From contig JAWCLH010000030.1 of assembly GCA_038851035.1 (NCBI GenBank), positions 1 to 32,637 of the forward strand: 32,637 nt of DNA, written 5' to 3'. Shown piece after piece: positions 2,917 through 25,513 of this stretch. The stretch is from Thermoplasmata archaeon (GTDB lineage: Archaea; Thermoplasmatota; DTKX01; VGTL01). Both the position numbers and the translations under genes were made by a program. Below the pieces are notes generated by a model that was not told the origin of the DNA, ran no database searches, and saw only the letters and a program-made list of their open reading frames with translations. Positions within the stretch are counted from its first letter, which is position 1. Each line of letters opens with the position of its first letter.

Positions 2917-3870
2917 TGTAAAGTCCTGAATTAAGTTCCTCTCGCTGATTTGAGTTCATGTCCCGGACCCCCTCTCTACCATGAATCCCTCTTCCAATAG
3001 ATAGGCAGGGGCATATCTGGCAACCATCTTGATGTTCTCCCTGATGAACGCCCTTCTCTTTGCAGGCCACGTAGTGCTCATTGCGCCTGAGACTCCAGTG
3101 AGGCCCTCTGTAGTTATAGTAGTTTAATGCCCTTTCAAACCCCCCGAAGTGCCGGGTGAACTTCATAATAGTTCCCGCCGCCTTCTCCACTTTCCCGTTC
3201 GATTGAGGATGTGAACTGTGTTCCATGGTCGCTTCATGAGCTGCCTAGGCTTGCCATAAGCCGCCACAGCACTTTTAAGGGCTCTTGGACCATTTTGAGG
3301 AATGGCATTTTTTATGAGCCGGCGCCCCCAATAAGCCTTGAAGCCTCGTCCTTTTTAAGAATTACATCTGCACTTCCAATCTCTATCCCGTCAGTGTGGC
3401 AGAAAGAGGTGCTGTGCCTCCTTCCACAATGGACCCAATTCCGGCGTCTCTGCTTTCTGGATTCATCCTGCACCAGCTCGTTCTCTTTGAAGCTCTTTTA
3501 AATGTGATTGTGCAGAATTTAGAGCCCCTCCTCACTCTAAATAGCCTTCTCTATGGTAAACGCTCTGGATGCTGAATGCCTGGCTCTTGCCCTCGTTACA
3601 TATTCCCTCTCTTCATCACTGATTAACTTAGGGGATGCCCCGGGCTTTTTAGGATATGGATATTCGCCCCTCTCCCTATACCGGCGGTAGAGCTCCCATA
3701 CCCAACGTTCCGATATCTTCTGTATCCTTGCAAGTTGATATGCAGAGGCCTTACCCTTTTCCATCTCCCTGATGAGCCATCTAAGCTTTCTCTTCGTAAA
3801 CTTCCACATATATTGACATGGTTTTATAGCTTTTATATTTACCAAGAGGAAGTTATTTCGGAATTCGAAA
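2917..3870 (-). mobile_element. Degenerate IS481-like insertion sequence
   Basis: The element is defined by a broken IS481-type transposase and imperfect terminal inverted repeats. The left end (2917-2944) begins TGTAAAGTCC immediately after the glgP TAG. Its inner part, about 2925-2944, matches the reverse complement of about 3843-3862 at roughly 15 of 20 positions (shared core CTTCCTCT/GTTCCTCT). A TGT-starting outer right end may extend to about 3879. No clean target-site duplication is visible, which fits an old insertion. The ends are approximate because both are decayed. Confidence 0.6.
2956..3809 (-). pseudogene. IS481-family transposase remnant (multiple frameshifts and an internal deletion)
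   Basis: Pieces of one IS481/rve transposase lie in order but in different frames. The N-terminal helix-turn-helix starts at ATG 3809 (MWKFTKRKLRWLIREMEKGK) and runs to a stop at 3537. A middle stretch reads WVHCGRRHSTSFCHTDG, containing the first catalytic Asp region (HTD). PRALKSAVAAYGKPRQLM follows, then a frame change into DHGTQFTS, the second Asp motif. HPQSNGKVEKAAGTIMKF with YYNYRGPHWSL is the Glu-motif region. Another frame change gives the tail PAKRRAFIRENIKMVARYAP, ending near 2956. The roughly 30 residues normally between DHGTQF and HPQSNGK are missing. At least three frame disruptions plus this deletion make it non-functional. Confidence 0.8.
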
Positions 3871-3898: not shown

Positions 3899-3958
3899 AT
3901 AGAAATACATTTCAAATGAAAAATATAAATAGAAATGCATTTAAATGGAAAAATATTT
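3899..3958 (+). repeat. Two tandem 30-bp direct repeats with palindromic cores (operator or centromere-like)
   Basis: Copy 1 is 3899-3928 and copy 2 is 3929-3958. They match at about 24 of 30 positions. Each carries a small palindrome: CATTTCAAATG at 3908-3918 and the perfect CATTTAAATG at 3938-3947. Both begin ATAGAAAT and share a GAAAAATAT block. They lie directly upstream of a TATA box and of a gene for an RHH DNA-binding protein, a common arrangement for autoregulatory or centromere sites. That the neighbouring RHH protein binds here is inference. Confidence 0.55.
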
Positions 3959-3966
3959 ATATAAAA
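3953..3966 (+). promoter_or_regulatory. Predicted TATA box for the RHH/FtsZ-like operon
   Basis: The AT stretch ATATTTATATAAAA is a strong archaeal TATA-box match. Transcription would start near 3982-3990, about 75-80 nt before the chosen RHH start at 4064. It directly follows the second 30-bp repeat, so a protein bound there could block or recruit TBP/TFB. This is a pattern-based call. Confidence 0.45.
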
Positions 3967-4063
3967 ATAATAAGGAAGGCTCTCGCAATGCAAAACGAAT
4001 ACAAAAATGAAAGAGCCAAAACCTATTTGTATTACGGAGACTATCCCGGAGGCAGGTCGGAAT

Positions 4064-4498
4064 ATGAGCATGACAATGTCCTCGTTGAGAATTCCAGATG
4101 AGCTTGCATCCTTCTATGAAAGACTGGCTGCGGCCTACCCAGAGAAGTTTGAGACAAAGGCCGATGCAATGCGTGCTGCACTGGAGTTTTATAGAGACTT
4201 TCACATGCTCGACCCTATGGTTGAGAGACATATTGTCGCGGGTTTTGAGCCGCCTGACCCAGCGATTAAAAGGATGATTCTGGATGTTCCCAAGGATGAC
4301 TATAATATGCTTAGATCCATCCAGAATATGGGGCGCGGCGCCAGTGTCCCCGAAATAATCCGGAGCTTCCTCCGTAGGTTCATAAGGAGCGAGGTAAAGG
4401 CCGTCCAGAGGGATAAGGAAGAACTCAGGCGCGCCCTTGAGGCGGTTAGGGCGCATGATAACGAGCTTAGGATGAGAGACAGTCATCTGACAAGATAA
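4064..4498 (+). CDS. Tandem ribbon-helix-helix DNA-binding protein with C-terminal coiled coil
   Basis: This 144-residue protein reads as two RHH units. RHH1 (about 3-47) has strand MTMSSLRIP and then two helices (DELASFYERLAAAYP and TKADAMRAALEFYRDF). RHH2 (about 69-108) has strand KRMILDVPKD and helices DDYNMLRSIQNMG and SVPEIIRSFLRRFIRSE. Residues 109-138 are a charged, heptad-rich helix likely to form a coiled coil. The frame is open back to an ATG at 4007, but ATG 4064 has GGAGG at 4049-4053 ten bases upstream and puts the first strand at the N-terminus, as in CopG/Arc-type proteins. Two palindromic 30-bp repeats lie upstream, and an FtsZ-like gene follows after 80 nt on the same strand. 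The likely role is autorepressor or centromere-type binder; the target is not proven. Confidence 0.7.
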   Translation: MSMTMSSLRIPDELASFYERLAAAYPEKFETKADAMRAALEFYRDFHMLDPMVERHIVAGFEPPDPAIKRMILDVPKDDYNMLRSIQNMGRGASVPEIIRSFLRRFIRSEVKAVQRDKEELRRALEAVRAHDNELRMRDSHLTR

Positions 4499-4522
4499 CC
4501 CGCGCTGCGGTTCGTGCTCATG

Positions 4523-4543
4523 ACCGGGGCGGGAGCCCCCGGT
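4523..4543 (+). other. GC-rich hairpin between the RHH and FtsZ-like genes
   Basis: ACCGGGG (4523-4529) is the exact complement of CCCCGGT (4537-4543), with a 7-nt loop between. The stem ends 35 nt before the FtsZ-like ATG. It could stop or attenuate read-through, or set an RNA processing point between the two genes. No U-tract follows, so it is not a classic terminator. Confidence 0.4.
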
Positions 4544-4578
4544 TAACAAAATTACCCTGGTGCGAGGGGTGGTGAGGG

Positions 4579-5613
4579 ATGACCGAGAGAGTGCAAATTG
4601 GTGAGCCCGGGCTATATCCCGGTTCGGAGAGCGGTGAGCCTGCAGTTGTTGTGGTCGGCGTCGGGGGTGCGGGCTGCAACTTTGTGAACAGAGTATCCTG
4701 CACAGGAATTCCCGGTGTGGTGACAATGGCCGTGAACACCGATAGAATTCACATCGAGCTCGTGGACGCTGATAAAAAGCTCCTCATCGGGAAGTCCCGT
4801 GTTCACGGCACCGGTATAGATGGGGATCCGGTCCTGGGAAAGATATGTATGGAAGAGGCCGCAGAAGAATTCCTAGAGCTTCTCGGCTCACCGGACGTGG
4901 TCTTCATTGTGGCCGGCATGGGGGGCGGGACTGGAACGGGAGCAGCGCCAGTCGCCGCCAGACTGGCGGGGGGCATGGGCGCTGTGGTGCTGGGAGTCGC
5001 CTATATGCCCTTTTCCATCGAGAGTTGGCGGGTCGAGAGGGCGAGGGAGGGTCTGGAGGAGTTCCGGCGCTCCTCTCAGGCGGTCATGGTTATGGAGAAC
5101 GACAGATTGCTCTCGATGGCGCCCACGCTCCCGGTGAACCTTGCCTTCGACGCTTTTGACCAGCCCCTCATCCACAGAATAGCGGCGATGGTCGAGAGGA
5201 TGAGAATCTCGAAGAGCATAATCGAACTCGAGAGGGTGGCCGAGGCGCTGCCGCTGGAGGGCCTCGCGATGGTCCGCTGTGATGGAGACGCCGGCGAGGC
5301 TAGGGTCGTGTGCGAGGCGGTGGACCACCCCCTTCTCGAGATCGACTGTATCGGAGCTCCATGGGTAAAGCCGACAGATAGCGGAGCTCGGTCGGTTTTG
5401 GGTGGAGTCAGCCCAATGCCACCTTCAAATGTGCTCGTCAGCACAAGGCCTGTCCAGGATGGGAGTGGGAAGAGAATTCTCCCACTCGTGTCCGGGATGA
5501 GGACCTATCCGACGCTTCAATCACACACGCATGCGCGCCCGCCCTCACAATCCCAGCCACAGAAATCTACTCGCCAGACCCTGCTGATTCCTCCAACCGG
5601 GGGCGAACCATGA
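4579..5613 (+). CDS. Divergent FtsZ/tubulin-family protein, probably poor in GTP hydrolysis
   Basis: This 344-residue protein has an FtsZ-type GTP-binding half: VVGVGGAGCNFVNR (25-38), AVNTD (51-55), DKKLLIGKS (65-73), and the tubulin signature GMGGGTGTG (113-121). ENDRLLSMAPTLPVNLAFDAFD (173-194) matches the FtsZ nucleotide-site and helix H7 approach. Where FtsZ carries the T7 loop (NLDFAD-like, supplying catalytic Asp to the neighbouring subunit), this protein reads SKSIIELERVAEA (211-223), with no NxDxxD. The C-terminal domain is short (GDAGEARVVCEAVDHPLLEID, then a strand before LVSGMRTY), followed by a polar Pro/Ser/Gln tail. It may still polymerise or act as a nucleotide switch. It starts at ATG 4579 after GGTGGTGAGG. 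It overlaps the next gene by ATGA, which implies translational coupling. It is not a normal division FtsZ; a partition or cytoskeletal paralogue is possible. Confidence 0.8.
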   Translation: MTERVQIGEPGLYPGSESGEPAVVVVGVGGAGCNFVNRVSCTGIPGVVTMAVNTDRIHIELVDADKKLLIGKSRVHGTGIDGDPVLGKICMEEAAEEFLELLGSPDVVFIVAGMGGGTGTGAAPVAARLAGGMGAVVLGVAYMPFSIESWRVERAREGLEEFRRSSQAVMVMENDRLLSMAPTLPVNLAFDAFDQPLIHRIAAMVERMRISKSIIELERVAEALPLEGLAMVRCDGDAGEARVVCEAVDHPLLEIDCIGAPWVKPTDSGARSVLGGVSPMPPSNVLVSTRPVQDGSGKRILPLVSGMRTYPTLQSHTHARPPSQSQPQKSTRQTLLIPPTGGEP

Positions 5614-6353
5614 CTGAGGCTGGTGGCCACCCGAACAGGAAGGGAAGCTTCTCAATGAGCCTCAGGAAAATCATAGAGGAGGTGGAGGCGAGGTCCGGCA
5701 GGAAGTTCATCGGGCCGGAGCTATACTTGGGGTCCGGGGGGCCATCCAGCACCGGAAGGCCCAGTGTTTTCCACAGCCACCACACGCCCCGCCATCCGAG
5801 AAGCACGAGGCAAATGAGTTTGGACTGGCTCGGGACGCCCTCACGCGCTGAGGCTGCTCAGAGAGCCTGCGGGGATGATATGGACGGAAGCCTCTATGGG
5901 CTCCCCCTCCTCCACCACTCCGGCTGTGAGAATGGCGGTAGGCCGAGCGGAATCGGAGTTGTCGGGAGGGACAAGGATGGGGTCGTGACATCTCCGTTGA
6001 CTGTGCCTCCCGGGGTTATAGGTGCAACGGTCACTGGAGGAATGGAAGGGGACGAAGCACATGCCAAGCCCCGGCCACGCATCCCAAGGAATTCATCGGA
6101 CTCGGAGGGACCTAGGATAGGTGGTGCAGAGACACCCCGGCCGCGGTCCGGCTCATGCGAGCCGACATCTGGTTTATCTCCATCGTCCCAGCGCCTCGGC
6201 GCAGCGCTGATTCATATGCTCCCGGACCTTCCGCAGATGAACGACGAAGCCTTTCTTCTCCTGTACCTCAGCGCCTCTCTTGAATTCGAGAGGAGATTCG
6301 GGGCTCAGGAGTGGTGCGAGAGAGTGCTGGCGATGGCGGCGCGGGGCCGTTGA
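5610..6353 (+). CDS. Unknown low-complexity protein coupled to the FtsZ-like gene
   Basis: This 247-residue protein is not recognised. Its ATG overlaps the FtsZ-like stop (ATGA, 5610-5613), so the two are probably made together. There are two short ordered ends. The N-terminal helix SLRKIIEEVEARSGRKFIGP lies at about 17-36, and the helical C-terminus (about 190-247) includes NDEAFLLLYLSASLEFERRF and ends near VLAMAARGR. The middle, about 40-188, is rich in Gly, Pro, Ser, Arg and His and looks disordered. No signal peptide or membrane segment is visible. The layout of short helical ends joined by a flexible linker suits an adaptor that tethers the FtsZ-like protein to a partner such as DNA, membrane or the RHH protein; that is inference. 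It ends convergently with trmJ 42 nt away. Confidence 0.65.
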   Translation: MTEAGGHPNRKGSFSMSLRKIIEEVEARSGRKFIGPELYLGSGGPSSTGRPSVFHSHHTPRHPRSTRQMSLDWLGTPSRAEAAQRACGDDMDGSLYGLPLLHHSGCENGGRPSGIGVVGRDKDGVVTSPLTVPPGVIGATVTGGMEGDEAHAKPRPRIPRNSSDSEGPRIGGAETPRPRSGSCEPTSGLSPSSQRLGAALIHMLPDLPQMNDEAFLLLYLSASLEFERRFGAQEWCERVLAMAARGR

Positions 6354-19531: not shown

Positions 19532-19584
19532 GAGGCGCGGCGCGCGTGCACCAAAACCGTCAGGGTGGACCGGAGGCCCTCAAC

Positions 19585-19597
19585 TACTATAAATACT
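19585..19597 (+). promoter_or_regulatory. TATA box of the giant CARDB protein gene
   Basis: ACTATAAATACTT is a strong TATA match. Transcription would start near 19612-19615, giving a leader of about 85 nt that contains the GGAGGAG ribosome site before ATG 19700. Confidence 0.5.
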
Positions 19598-19699
19598 TAT
19601 ACCAAAACAACCATTATTGGAGCAATCGAACCAAAGGGGCAACGCGACCGGATAGAGGGTCCTGCGCCCGGGTCCAGGGTCGGGGCTGGAGGAGAGAAA

Positions 19700-22600
19700 A
19701 TGAGGAGAGGAGGAGGAATCTGGCGGGCGCTCCTTCCGGCGCTTCTCTTGCTTGCCCCCGCCTGCGCTACCCTCCTGCCCTCCGGGGGCAATGGCGAGAG
19801 CGGGCCTGCCCCCTCGGAGGAGGGACCCCAGAGCGGCAGGGGGTCAGAGAGGGCACCCGGCGCGCCAGCCCTCCCTGATCTGATTCTGAGCAACCTCAGC
19901 CGCTCGCTCGACTCGCCAGGAGACATGTCCTCGGTCACATTCTTCGCCACCGTCTTCAACGATGGCGCCGCCCTGACTCAGCAGGTCACGGTCGAACTCT
20001 TCATCGACGGCGTTCCCCAAGGGAGCTCGATTATCGGCGGGCTCTTCGAGGGCGGCTCGGCTACTGTGGGAATTCCATGGACCGCGCTCTCCGGCCAACA
20101 CGAGGCCCTCGTGGTCGTGGATGCTCAGGGCCTGATTCCGGAGCTCAACGAGACGAACAATTGGAGGGTTGCCTATTTCAGCGTTCCCTCGCCTGACATC
20201 GTTGTGCAGAATGTCAGTTGGTATCCCATCCGGTTCAGGGATGGCGATGCGGTGACGATAAATGTCGAGCTCAGGAACAGGGGTCCAGGCTCCGCCGGAC
20301 GGGCCTTTGTACTTGCTGCTTCGGTGGACCAGACCCCGCTCCCTCGCCAGCTCGTCGGCCCGATTCCTGCAGGCGCGTCGGCCCTCGCAACATTGCGCTG
20401 GACCGCCTTCTCGGGGAGCCGGGCCCTCTTCCTAGAAGCGGATGCAGGGAACTCACTCAGGGAGACCAACGAGACCAATAACCGCGCGGTGGTTCTGCTC
20501 GGCGCAGACTACCCGGACCTCGTGGTTTCCTCGGTTTCTATCAGCCCGCCTGAGCCCGAAGAGGGCGAGATAGCGTTCCTCAATGCTACGGTCACAAACC
20601 TTGGCTCTGGCTCAACCTCAGACACATTCCAGGTCCATTTCACAGTGGACGGCGTCAGCGCAGGCGCCGTCGACATTGCTGGGCTGGCTTCGGGGTCCAG
20701 CCGTAGCGTCTCCATACGGTGGAGGGCTGTCGCGGGCCACCACGAGGTCCGGGCCGATGCCGACGCGAGCGGCGAAATACTAGAGGCGGTCGAGAGCAAC
20801 AATCACGCCCTCACTTCCGTCCGAATCGGTATGGCCGAGCTCTCGCTCGGGGGGCTCCAATGGACCCCCGCCCTCCCTTCTGACGGGATGGTGACGAGGG
20901 TCGGCCTGAGCGTCCGCAACAGCGCGAACAATGGAACGAGGGCACCGTTCGTGGTGGCCCTTTACATCGACGGCTCGTGCGCCGATGCAACCACCATCAA
21001 CGGCCTAGGGCCCCAAGAGGCCCGCAACTTGAGTCTCAACTGGACTGCATCTGGAGGGGCCCACGAGCTGTGCGTCGTCGCAGACCCTCACGACACTGTT
21101 CACGAACTGAACGAGAGCAACAACGCCCTCAGCCTCCCCATTATCGTCCCGATGCCCGACCTCACTCCGACCAATCTCACCCTCCACCCTTCGTCGCCCT
21201 CCGCCGGAGAGTCCGTTGAGGTCAGGGTCTCGATTCGAAATACCGGCCCCGGCAACCTCTCAAGGATGTTCCTGACCCGGCTATACTGGGAAGGGAGGGA
21301 AGTTGCCTCAGAAGTCCTTGGCGGCCTCGAGGCCGGGTCAAGCCGCATCCTGAGTATGAGGTGGACTGCAGAGGCCGGCGAGGGGGAACTGACTGCGGTG
21401 GTTGATCCCGAGCAGAGAATTGCCGAGGCCAACGAACTCAACAACAGCATTTCGATAAGAACCGGCGTCCCCTTCCCCGACATCACCGTGAGCCAGATGG
21501 AGTGGTTCCCACCCGGCGCGGGCGCGGGAGAAAGGCTCAACGTCAGCGTAAGGGTTGAGAACAAAGGGCCCGGAGACCTGACCACGCCCGTTTCGATAAC
21601 CCTCTACGCCAACGCCTCTGCCACTAGCACTCTCGAGCTGGGTGGACTCGGGTCTGGCCGGAACGCCACAATCAGCTTCAGCCTCGTTCTCCCATCGGCC
21701 TCTTTGAGCCTAAGCGCGGTTGTCGACCCACTGGACCGAGTGGCGGAGCTATCCGAGGCTAACAACCGCCTGACGCGTCTTTTCCCCACTGGCGTGGAGG
21801 CTCCGGCGCCCCCGGCGCAGGACTATTTCGTCAGAGAGCCGGTTCTGCTTCCCGAGACACCTGTGGACGGCGAAACCGCCTCCGTGATTGTTACTGTTTG
21901 TGCCGCGGGAACCGCCACCGGGCCCCCGGCACCGGTAGAGGTCGCTCTAGTCGCTGATGGAAGGATCGCGGCGAGGGGCCAGGCCGTGGTTTCCGCGGGT
22001 GAGGGCATGGCTAGGCTGGAGTGGAAGGCGAGTGCCGGCGCCCACAAGCTCACAATTATCGTCGACCCCGACGGAGAGATTCCCGAAACGCGAGAGGACA
22101 ACAACCGTGCCTCTCTAGCGCTCATCGTGGGCCCAGTGAACCTCGTTGTTTCCGAGCTAGCTCCCATACAGAGTATTGTCCATGACGGAGAGACGGTGTG
22201 TGTTCTCTGCCGCGTTGAGAATCTGGAACCAAATCCAACCCGGGCGGCATTCACCCTCTCTTTTTATGTCGACGGTGTCCTCGAGACGATGAGAGAGCTC
22301 AGCGGCCTTCCCGCGCGCGCATCCATGAGCGAAGTTCTCTCATTCCGTGCCCTGGCGGGAGACCATAGACTGAGGGCAGTTGTGGACCCCGAGGGTTCAG
22401 TCTCGGAGACGGTCGAGGAAGACAACGAGGCCACGGCCGAAATAACCGTTCGGCCGCCCGATATCGAGGTTACTGGAATAACCGCGATCCGCGAGGCGGA
22501 CGAGGGAAACACCGTCGGAATCACCGCTACCATCCGCAACGCAGGAGCGCCGACTGTGAGACGCGTGACTGTAATTTTTCTCGTCGACGGCTTTCCTGCG

Positions 22601-25513
22601 GGCTCCGCCCAGACCGAAGGTCTCCTCTCCGGCGCGACCCACCCCCTTTCCACCAAGTGGACCGCACTTCCCGGGAACCACACTGTGACCGTGATTGCGG
22701 ACCCTGGGCGCGAGATTATCGAGTTGGATGAGGAGAACAATCGACTCCGACTGGCGACAATCAACGTTAGCCTTCCAGACCTCACCGTCCAAAACCTGAC
22801 GGTTTCAGGACCGCCCGTCGTAGGCGCGGAGTGCATCGCCTCGGTCGATGTCCTGAACTTAGGCGAGACCACCCTCAGGGATTTCTACGTATCCTTCTCC
22901 GTGGACGAAACCGTTTTGAAGACCGAGAGACTCGGAGGGTTGCCTGGTGGGGCCTCTTGCTCTGTCTCGGTAAGGCTCCCCGTCCTCGCCGGGCCTCGCT
23001 TATACTCTGTCAGGGTGGACAGCACGCAGGCTGTCAAGGAGCTCGACGAGACCAACAACTTGGCCTACCTGAGTCAAGAAGCGACGCCACCGGCCGAGCT
23101 CTCACTCGTTGGCCTGAGAGTCCAGTCCTATGCTGTGGATGGGGAGGAGGTGGGGATTTTTGCAGAGATTCTGAATTCTGGGGTGGGCAACACCACTGAG
23201 CCATTTCAGGTCTCCTTTTTCGTAGACGGCAGAATCCTCTCCAGCGACGTGATCGGAGGCCTCCCAGCAGGCGAGACCGCTGTCGCAACCGCCCGCTGGA
23301 CCGCCACGCCGGGCCGGCACAGGGTGAGGGCTGTGGTCGACCCCACGGGTGTGGTGCCCGAGGGAAACGAGGGGGACAACGAGCAGCAACGGGACGGTCC
23401 GTCAGTCGAGCACCCAGACCTCACTATCGAGAGGATTTCCACAGTCAGGCTTGGTGGGGAGACGGGCCGCTTCGCAGTCTTTGCCCAACTCGAAAATATC
23501 GGGGGACCAACCCTGAGAACAGTATCGGCTCGGCTGCTCATCGACGGAAGGCCCGCGGAAACGGTGAGCCTGAGGGGACTTACAGCGAGAACAGCAACCA
23601 CGCTATACTTTGAGGCTCAGGCGGCCGCACCCGGCATTCTCTCCGTCTCCGCTGACCCATCCGGAGAGCTTCCGGAGGCAGATGAATCCAACAACGCGGC
23701 CACGGCCCCTTTCCTCCCCCTACCCGAGCTCGAGGGTTCCCGGCCCGACCTCGTCGTCGAGCGCTGGGCGCTCCTCCCCCCCAGCCCGGTCGAAGGGCAG
23801 CAAGCAATGATTCTCGCCACGATAACCAATCTCGGCAACGGCTCCCTGCTCGGCCGGAGCGAGGCCTTGCTCGAGCTCCAGAGCCGGGCGCCTGACCCCA
23901 CCAACCCAAGGAGGGAGGTCATCGTCGGAACATCCAACATCCAGAGTAGCCTTTTGGGCCTCCTGCCGGGAGGCTCTGCAGTCATAAGCTTCCCCTGGAC
24001 AGCGACTGGAGGGAACACCTCACTAACCGTAACCGTCAACCCCTCTCGCCGGATTCCGGAATGGGAAACCGGGAACAACGCACTCAAGGATATTATTGAA
24101 GTCCCCCGACCCAACCTGCAAATTACGGGAGTTGTAAAATGGAGCTTGACGCCAGGGCTCAAGTCCCCCATCTTTGTGCTCATCGAGAATAAAGGTCCGG
24201 GCGACACACTCTCGACGTCGCCGGGAGAGCTCTACATAAACGGCATCCTTAGCTCCCAGCTCCCGCTCCGTGGCCTTCTCTCTGGCCACACTACAGTCTG
24301 CCCCGCTCGTGTCGAGGCCGAGGCGGGAGAGAGCACGCTACTGGCCGTGGCCGACGCCGGAAATAGAATAATCGAGATGGAGAAATCGGGTAACTCCCTT
24401 CTCGAGGGACTCCACCTCAGTTACCCCGACCTCACTATTGCGAACATCACATGGACGCGGCACTTAGACAACGAGAGCATCGTCACGGTCTTCGCAGAAA
24501 TCCGCAACGAGGGTACCGGGGCGGCCGGGAGAGCATTCGAGGTCTCGCTGAGCGCCGACGCGCGCCTAGTGGGGCGGACAATGGTTCCGTGCCTGCGGGC
24601 CAACTCGAGCACGCTGGTATCCTGGAGGTGGCCCCTCGTGCCCGGCAACCACACCCTTTCCGTTGAGGTGGATACAGGCGACTCCATCCTCGAAGCCAGG
24701 GAGAATAACAACAGAATGGACGTCTCGTTCCCCCTATGGAGGAGCGCATATACACCGACCCTCCTCAACCTCAGGCTCACCGGCCTGAGATTCTCCCAGC
24801 AGAACACGGGGAGATGGAATGCCAGCGTCAACACGGTCACCCTTTTCATGACGTTCGAGAATGACGGCCTCGAGAACCTCAGCGCCTCGAGCGCCGACGT
24901 CATCCTCAATGGAAAGCTCCTCAGGACGGTTCCGGTCCCCCCGCTGGCCAATGACAGCGAAGCGGTGGTCGAGCTCGCCTGGGTCGCGCCGGTTGCGGAC
25001 CTGAACGTGAGCGTTCGCCTCGACCCGCGAAGGCGGTTGGCGGAGGACTTCGAGACCGACAATGACCTCACCTTATTTATCCCAGCCAACCACCCTCCCA
25101 TCGCGAGCGCCGGTGGCAACAGGACGATAACCGCCGGCGACAAAATCGAACTCCATCCCCACGCCGACGACCCCGACGTAATCCTTGAGGGCGGAGTTCG
25201 CGTCCCGGGCTACATCGCCCTGTATGAGTGGGACTTGAATGGAGACGGCGTCTACGAACACAACTCAACGATATCGGGCGATGTGACTGCAGTATTCCAC
25301 ACCCCCGGACGCTATATGATTCGCTTCCGTGTCACAGACGACCAAGGAGCGACTGCGGTCTCGGAGGCGGTAATAGTCGTCAGACCAGTAAAGGAGGAGC
25401 AGCTGATTCGAACAGACACTCTGACAATAGCGGCCGTGGGTATCCTCTTCTTTATTCTCGTGCTCTCCGCTGTGTGGCTCGTTAGGGGAAAGGAGGAAAT
25501 CTTCAGGAAATAG
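19700..25513 (+). CDS. Giant surface protein: 16 CARDB-like repeats, PKD-like domain, C-terminal membrane anchor
   Basis: This 1937-residue protein starts with a signal peptide (RRGGGIWRALLPALLLLAPA) after ATG 19700, which has GGAGGAG six to seven nt upstream. The frame is open to 19565, but the earlier stretch is promoter-like. I count 16 consecutive CARDB-like units of about 105 residues, each opening with PDL/DI-type strands (PDLVVSSVSISPPEPEEG), then FxVDG, GLxxG, RWTAxxGxHxxxAxxD and closing E(S/T/E)NN. Examples of closings are ELNETNN, EAVESNN and ELDEENN. A PKD-like domain follows (HPPIASAGGNRTITAG, then YEWDLNGDGVYEHN), then a membrane helix (LTIAAVGILFFILVLSAVWLV) with a basic cytoplasmic end. 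CARDB domains are adhesion or spacer modules. The protein is likely a long stalk on the cell surface; no catalytic domain is seen. There is no PGF-CTERM, unlike the 944-residue protein. Confidence 0.9.
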   Translation: MRRGGGIWRALLPALLLLAPACATLLPSGGNGESGPAPSEEGPQSGRGSERAPGAPALPDLILSNLSRSLDSPGDMSSVTFFATVFNDGAALTQQVTVELFIDGVPQGSSIIGGLFEGGSATVGIPWTALSGQHEALVVVDAQGLIPELNETNNWRVAYFSVPSPDIVVQNVSWYPIRFRDGDAVTINVELRNRGPGSAGRAFVLAASVDQTPLPRQLVGPIPAGASALATLRWTAFSGSRALFLEADAGNSLRETNETNNRAVVLLGADYPDLVVSSVSISPPEPEEGEIAFLNATVTNLGSGSTSDTFQVHFTVDGVSAGAVDIAGLASGSSRSVSIRWRAVAGHHEVRADADASGEILEAVESNNHALTSVRIGMAELSLGGLQWTPALPSDGMVTRVGLSVRNSANNGTRAPFVVALYIDGSCADATTINGLGPQEARNLSLNWTASGGAHELCVVADPHDTVHELNESNNALSLPIIVPMPDLTPTNLTLHPSSPSAGESVEVRVSIRNTGPGNLSRMFLTRLYWEGREVASEVLGGLEAGSSRILSMRWTAEAGEGELTAVVDPEQRIAEANELNNSISIRTGVPFPDITVSQMEWFPPGAGAGERLNVSVRVENKGPGDLTTPVSITLYANASATSTLELGGLGSGRNATISFSLVLPSASLSLSAVVDPLDRVAELSEANNRLTRLFPTGVEAPAPPAQDYFVREPVLLPETPVDGETASVIVTVCAAGTATGPPAPVEVALVADGRIAARGQAVVSAGEGMARLEWKASAGAHKLTIIVDPDGEIPETREDNNRASLALIVGPVNLVVSELAPIQSIVHDGETVCVLCRVENLEPNPTRAAFTLSFYVDGVLETMRELSGLPARASMSEVLSFRALAGDHRLRAVVDPEGSVSETVEEDNEATAEITVRPPDIEVTGITAIREADEGNTVGITATIRNAGAPTVRRVTVIFLVDGFPAGSAQTEGLLSGATHPLSTKWTALPGNHTVTVIADPGREIIELDEENNRLRLATINVSLPDLTVQNLTVSGPPVVGAECIASVDVLNLGETTLRDFYVSFSVDETVLKTERLGGLPGGASCSVSVRLPVLAGPRLYSVRVDSTQAVKELDETNNLAYLSQEATPPAELSLVGLRVQSYAVDGEEVGIFAEILNSGVGNTTEPFQVSFFVDGRILSSDVIGGLPAGETAVATARWTATPGRHRVRAVVDPTGVVPEGNEGDNEQQRDGPSVEHPDLTIERISTVRLGGETGRFAVFAQLENIGGPTLRTVSARLLIDGRPAETVSLRGLTARTATTLYFEAQAAAPGILSVSADPSGELPEADESNNAATAPFLPLPELEGSRPDLVVERWALLPPSPVEGQQAMILATITNLGNGSLLGRSEALLELQSRAPDPTNPRREVIVGTSNIQSSLLGLLPGGSAVISFPWTATGGNTSLTVTVNPSRRIPEWETGNNALKDIIEVPRPNLQITGVVKWSLTPGLKSPIFVLIENKGPGDTLSTSPGELYINGILSSQLPLRGLLSGHTTVCPARVEAEAGESTLLAVADAGNRIIEMEKSGNSLLEGLHLSYPDLTIANITWTRHLDNESIVTVFAEIRNEGTGAAGRAFEVSLSADARLVGRTMVPCLRANSSTLVSWRWPLVPGNHTLSVEVDTGDSILEARENNNRMDVSFPLWRSAYTPTLLNLRLTGLRFSQQNTGRWNASVNTVTLFMTFENDGLENLSASSADVILNGKLLRTVPVPPLANDSEAVVELAWVAPVADLNVSVRLDPRRRLAEDFETDNDLTLFIPANHPPIASAGGNRTITAGDKIELHPHADDPDVILEGGVRVPGYIALYEWDLNGDGVYEHNSTISGDVTAVFHTPGRYMIRFRVTDDQGATAVSEAVIVVRPVKEEQLIRTDTLTIAAVGILFFILVLSAVWLVRGKEEIFRK

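Follow-up and report, generated by a model that had tools for sequence, protein, structure and literature searches.

The occurrence, in a Thermoplasmata archaeon, of a gene for an RHH protein next to one for a divergent member of the FtsZ family raises the question of whether such a locus serves the segregation of a DNA element or the division of the cell, and of what an FtsZ relative with an altered catalytic loop might contribute to either. The window, by which we mean the whole stretch of DNA analysed (32,637 nucleotides), contains three co-oriented genes, all on the plus strand, and the RHH gene lies directly 5' of the FtsZ-like gene with 80 bp between 4498 and 4579. The flanks are chromosomal, with glgP on one side and trmJ and truA on the other, and are syntenic with those in the sister genus G001. 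A preliminary description of this DNA had pointed to repeats, a tandem RHH protein, a divergent FtsZ and an ATGA-coupled third gene, all of which are present in the sequence, and its view of the trio as a real cassette of cytoskeletal type is likewise borne out, co-orientation and ATGA coupling both being kept in G001. The elements of the locus are as follows.

About 2922 to 3868, minus strand: remnant of an insertion sequence (IS) that lies between glgP and the cassette and does not belong to the latter; the genome has 32 matches to it, of which many end at the equivalent of 3868.
3902 to 3961, no strand: two tandem 30-bp AT-rich repeats, 24/30 identical, with GAAATRCATTT palindromes and TATA-like stretches.
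3988 to 4101, plus strand: upstream open frame of 37 codons, read from the sequence, which overlaps the beginning of the RHH gene.
4024 to 4039, no strand: TATTTGTATTACGGAG, common to G001, around a GTAnTAC palindrome with a differing centre.
4064 to 4498, plus strand: tandem RHH protein with a long C-terminal helix, a CdrS-type regulator.
4579 to 5613, plus strand: protein probably derived from FtsZ2, with the GTP-binding domain intact (about residues 18-210), the T7 loop lost, and the C-terminal domain and GID tail eroded.
5610 to 6353, plus strand: third protein, its start overlapping the ftsZ stop (ATGA), with a conserved N-terminal helix motif, a low-complexity linker and a C-terminal block.

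The pairing of an RHH protein with a tubulin-type protein had been taken to be new, but is that of an operon already published. The cdrS and ftsZ2 genes are co-transcribed and conserved across archaea (Darnell et al., PMC7439475), with a follow-up study in Haloferax volcanii (PMC8406309); parD often adjoins ftsZ2 (PMC8178401), and the gene contexts of ftsZ2 usually include an RHH_1 gene (PMC9871819). In our sample of the phylum an RHH gene lies directly 5' of FtsZ2 in 21 of 27 canonical relatives (19 found automatically, together with L009 and the contig-cut L012, which were read individually), and 5' of neither FtsZ1 (0/26) nor degenerate FtsZ1-type genes (0/4). All four genera of the window's class have the RHH gene directly upstream of the RHH-linked FtsZ. 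The window locus resembles the cdrS-ftsZ2 operon, known from Halobacterium salinarum and Haloferax volcanii and widespread in archaea, in having a co-oriented RHH gene directly upstream of an FtsZ gene, here probably of the FtsZ2 type, and in being chromosomal and apart from ftsZ1. It differs in that the RHH protein is doubled and longer, the FtsZ has neither the catalytic residues of T7 nor a GID tail, an extra coupled third gene follows, and the upstream region is devoid of the phylum's conserved palindrome, TTGTCnGACAA. Elsewhere in the phylum, a well supported FtsZ2 clade (L027-L030 and L069; families f17 and f25) has neither the RHH neighbour nor the palindrome.

The RHH gene likely starts at the ATG at 4064, with GGAGG at 4048-4052, rather than at 4007, and GGAGG likewise precedes the start of the G001 orthologue. 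Taken alone, the window copy is unmatched by the Pfam RHH models; the G001 orthologue, 68% identical to it, passes PF01402 (22.3 bits against a cut-off of 20.5). With a profile of the tandem relatives, the first half gave weak matches to NikR, CopG, Arc and ParD and the second half weak matches to the CopG-family structures 6iya/7etr. The AlphaFold2 model, of moderate confidence (pLDDT 62), contains the beta-alpha-alpha unit twice, followed by a long C-terminal helix, and a fold search with it returned weak matches (best E 0.18), of which the top three are F-plasmid relaxosome chains. By sequence the protein is a doubled CdrS-type regulator; doubled RHH proteins occur also in three relatives (L009, L011 and L033), and the doubled form is therefore not unique to the window.

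The FtsZ-like protein matches PF00091 with E = 9.7e-32 and scores 193.7 bits with the ftsZ model TIGR00065, under the cut-off of 295.2, while its matches among solved structures are to FtsZ, with no TubZ among them. It is encoded by one of five FtsZ-family genes in the window genome, three of which are above the ftsZ cut-off and two, including the window's, below it; three intact genes of the FtsZ1 type are thereby retained. Since SepF is also present, a working ring would be expected from the three above-cut-off proteins without the window's derivative. Descent of the latter from FtsZ2 is likely, though not proven. In the tree the long branch of the window and G001 proteins lies near the stem, and the data do not reject a grouping of it with FtsZ1 (delta lnL 0.2, p-AU 0.41), so that the argument for FtsZ2 descent draws on signatures, hit ranking and synteny; midpoint-rooted trees were discarded, being uninformative because of the long branches. 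At 30 columns diagnostic for FtsZ1 or FtsZ2 the window protein agrees with FtsZ2 at 10 and with FtsZ1 at 3, the corresponding figures being 12 to 4 for G001 and 10 to 6 for G003/G004. Beyond its family, where the G001 counterpart is 55% identical, the best matches are mostly RHH-linked FtsZ2 proteins (about 37-44% identity), which score higher than FtsZ1 copies. With canonical archaeal FtsZ2 it has in common the FtsZ GTPase fold, the GGGTGTG loop and FtsZ2 diagnostic residues, but it is changed at 19 of 62 near-invariant positions, including the T7 N and both D, and its C-terminal domain is eroded. A 38%-identical FtsZ relative is encoded on a contig labelled 'bacterium isolate Co_bin.308' (L091).

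The T7 loop enters the GTP pocket of the next subunit and triggers hydrolysis (PMC8456036). In the window protein the nucleotide-binding loops, GGGTGTG included, are intact, and the T7 sequence NLDxxD has become IELERV, with N272 deleted and the changes D274E and D277R (L018 numbering) at N, D and D positions, each of which is retained by 95% or more of the 53 canonical rows. In the alignment the canonical SLINLDYADVRTI corresponds to KSI-IELERVAEA in the window, TKL-VETSRLLEA in G001 and GLVPIDLDSVTSM in G003/G004, and is largely missing in G002, the loop being altered or missing in the RHH-linked FtsZ of all four class genera, in the window as in G001, G002, G003 and G004. The degeneration is graded: mild in G003/G004 (N272P, D277S), stronger in the window's family and severe in G002, where 31 of the 62 near-invariant positions are kept. 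The GID-type C-terminal motif binds SepF (PMC8178401); the window protein ends in TLLIPPTGGEP, with no GID-type ending, and its FtsZ1 counterparts in that genome end in GIDFVR or similar, the C-terminal domain and tail being eroded throughout the window's family. The AlphaFold2 model, whose best PDB matches are FtsZ, has pLDDT >90 across most of the GTPase domain, but values of <50 in the T7 segment and over the greater part of the C-terminal domain. Two families of the class conserve another degenerate FtsZ as well (L005 on G000 C2, L049 in G001, L044 in G004 and L050 in G003), which bears FtsZ1 signatures, has the NLD of the T7 loop deleted and has no RHH neighbour.

The third gene has no family match in Pfam or NCBIfam, and weak matches in the phylum (E about 0.005-0.01), which might have placed it in a known family, proved to be unrelated frames. 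It is present in 2 of 390 phylum genomes, is restricted to the window's family and was not found in G002-G004; of the conserved trio that the preliminary description envisaged, then, all three genes are kept together in G001, but the third is absent outside the family. The G001 copy is 47% identical overall and retains the ATGA overlap with ftsZ. A variable linker joins the conserved N-terminal block FSxSLxKIIxxVEARxGRKFxGPEL to the C-terminal block LPxxPxxxDEAFLxLYLxxSxxFERRFGxQxWxxRVLxMAAxGR (first residues simplified). In G003/G004 a different gene, resembling by eye a D-aminoacyl-tRNA deacylase, follows ftsZ.

Purifying selection, with dN lower than dS in each of the three genes, is apparent from the comparison of the window with G001, a single sequence pair with high dS: dN and dS are 0.33 and 1.62 in the GTPase domain (dN/dS about 0.2), 0.44 and 1.42 in the FtsZ C-terminal domain, 0.27 and 0.80 in the N block of the third gene and 0.30 and 1.16 in its C block, and pN and pS are 0.22 and 0.84 in the RHH gene.

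How might such an operon be controlled? The two 30-bp repeats (3902-3931 and 3932-3961) are identical at 24 of 30 positions, a level of agreement that 1 of 1000 dinucleotide shuffles of this 122-bp region attains. They are absent from G001 and thus, contrary to what had been anticipated, not kept upstream of homologues; nor does the genome contain, beyond the two copies, a match with fewer than 2 mismatches. An origin as part of the IS, the reading frames of which are fragmented into pieces of about 100 amino acids, is ruled out by IS copies elsewhere that end at the equivalent of 3868, before the repeats, and a role as regulon-wide operator by the weakness of all further matches in the genome. 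The repeats are specific to the window and are probably a duplicated promoter or upstream element.

Canonical cdrS-ftsZ2 operons are preceded by the palindrome TTGTCnGACAA, which was spotted by eye first and counted afterwards: it is perfect at 13 of 20 testable loci, within 1 mismatch at 17 and within 2 at all 20, the frequencies in random 200-bp windows of the same loci being 0.8% (perfect) and about 5% (up to 2 mismatches). Among 15 genomes the 13-mer TTTGTCnGACAAA has 7 sites, 6 of them at the cdrS-ftsZ2 operon; neither G000 nor G001 has it, and G002 retains TTGTCTGACAG. The palindrome is likely the operator of CdrS, a putative assignment made from its distribution, and has been lost from the window's family. 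It stands upstream of cdrS in L007, L008, L010, L014, L017, L019-L023, L025, L031, L032 and others, is nearly unique in each genome tested and occurs where RHH is linked to FtsZ2. That CdrS regulates its own operon is less certain, in that the cdrS-ftsZ2 promoter of Halobacterium is bound by CdrL (PMC7439475) and that the CdrS sites in Haloferax were found upstream of ftsZ1 and other genes (PMC8406309). In G002 CTGTCGGACAA, one mismatch from the cdrS palindrome, lies about 90 bases before an FtsZ1-type gene (L040), which would be consistent with an action of CdrS on ftsZ1 like that in Haloferax.

The window and G001 have in common TATTTGTAnTACGGAG, differing solely in the central base of a GTAnTAC core with the same odd-palindrome layout as TTGTCnGACAA, and in neither G000 nor G001 does TATTTGTATTACGGAG have a perfect match at a second site. 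The stretch at 4024-4039 is a candidate, based on two sequences, for a re-evolved operator; it lies inside the 3988-4101 open frame, so that coding could also explain its conservation. A KTYLYYG stretch of this frame is common to G001 in near-identical DNA, with the differences at third codon positions, and the frame could represent either a leader peptide or an operator.

The explanation we favour, and consider somewhat better than even, is that the locus is a lineage-specific derivative of cdrS-ftsZ2 in which FtsZ2 has lost its GTPase activity and turned into a modulator of the FtsZ1 ring. The order of the genes, their coupling, the disappearance of the catalytic motif and the selection can be read directly from the sequences; the mechanism would build on these as follows. 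The RHH protein would bind the promoter region and autoregulate the operon through an altered operator. The FtsZ2 derivative would bind GTP without hydrolysing it and would join or cap filaments of the intact FtsZ1-type proteins, its non-hydrolysing joints tuning the ring, while the third protein may stand in for the lost tail by tethering or bridging the derivative to a partner, for instance the ring or membrane. ARC3 of chloroplasts is an FtsZ-like modulator of the FtsZ ring, and offers a functional analogy for a degenerate relative of FtsZ that works on filaments of the intact protein, although the origin and domain layout of the window protein are unrelated to it. A wider version is plausible but falls a little short of an even chance: throughout the class, the FtsZ2 of the cdrS operon would have become a pseudo-FtsZ that binds GTP but does not hydrolyse it and that, in one family, has acquired a new coupled partner; it would either cap or modulate the filaments of FtsZ1 or report the state of the ring or of GTP to the RHH protein, and division would proceed on FtsZ1 alone.

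These proposals have to be set against other accounts of the same genes. Had FtsZ2 become redundant once the class multiplied FtsZ1, it could be decaying stepwise, retained only behind a regulator that is still needed. The gradation from G003/G004 through the window's family to G002 would suit such a dying operon, as would the greater conservation of RHH than of FtsZ between the window and G001 (68% versus 55%); yet no stops or frameshifts have appeared despite long divergence, dN is well under dS both in the GTPase domain (0.33 versus 1.62) and in the two blocks that the third gene conserves, and the GTP-binding loops and ATGA coupling persist, so that we regard decay as unlikely. We judge it quite unlikely that the derivative has left the cytoskeleton to become a GTP-binding sensor, which together with the third protein would act on the RHH protein such that transcription of the operon or regulon tracks GTP or the state of the ring. 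Retention of the nucleotide pocket with loss of the hydrolysis and tail motifs, and of the RHH linkage in all four genera as FtsZ degenerates, is what a sensor would lead one to expect, but canonical FtsZ2 proteins with the same RHH neighbour are division proteins (PMC7439475).

Segregation of an element, as the preliminary description had it, would require a partition cassette of plasmid or integrated-element origin, in which the RHH protein would sit on the 30-bp repeats as adaptor and the FtsZ-like protein would be the motor. Repeats, RHH and a tubulin fold do occur here together, with an IS adjoining, much as a DNA binder, a filament-fold protein and repeats share one locus in TubZRC (type III) and ParMRC (type II) systems. 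The window locus, however, is chromosomal with flanks syntenic with G001, and its protein matches FtsZ and not TubZ; it differs from TubZRC in having no TubZ-family polymerase, an RHH protein in place of the winged-helix TubR and no conserved tubC-like repeats, and from ParMRC in having a tubulin/FtsZ fold and no actin-like ParM. With its catalytic loop lost, the derivative would make a poor motor. Since, moreover, the RHH-FtsZ2 pair has been published as a division operon, we consider partition highly improbable and have set it aside.

The locus is a derived member of an operon type that is itself known, and what deserves following up is the FtsZ2 disabled across the class, together with the conserved putative operator. 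In haloarchaea FtsZ1 and FtsZ2 share the labour of cytokinesis, with FtsZ2 driving constriction (PMC8178401), and a class that keeps cdrS-ftsZ2 with FtsZ2 catalysis disabled would be a natural test of the need for hydrolysis by FtsZ2, the disabled protein being, if truly so, a rare prokaryotic pseudo-FtsZ. The conserved upstream palindrome of canonical operons offers a concrete operator candidate for the regulator. Elsewhere in the window, positions 19565-25513 encode a predicted protein of 1982 amino acids with, by eye, many similar repeats ending in NN-containing motifs, which is probably a cell-surface protein.
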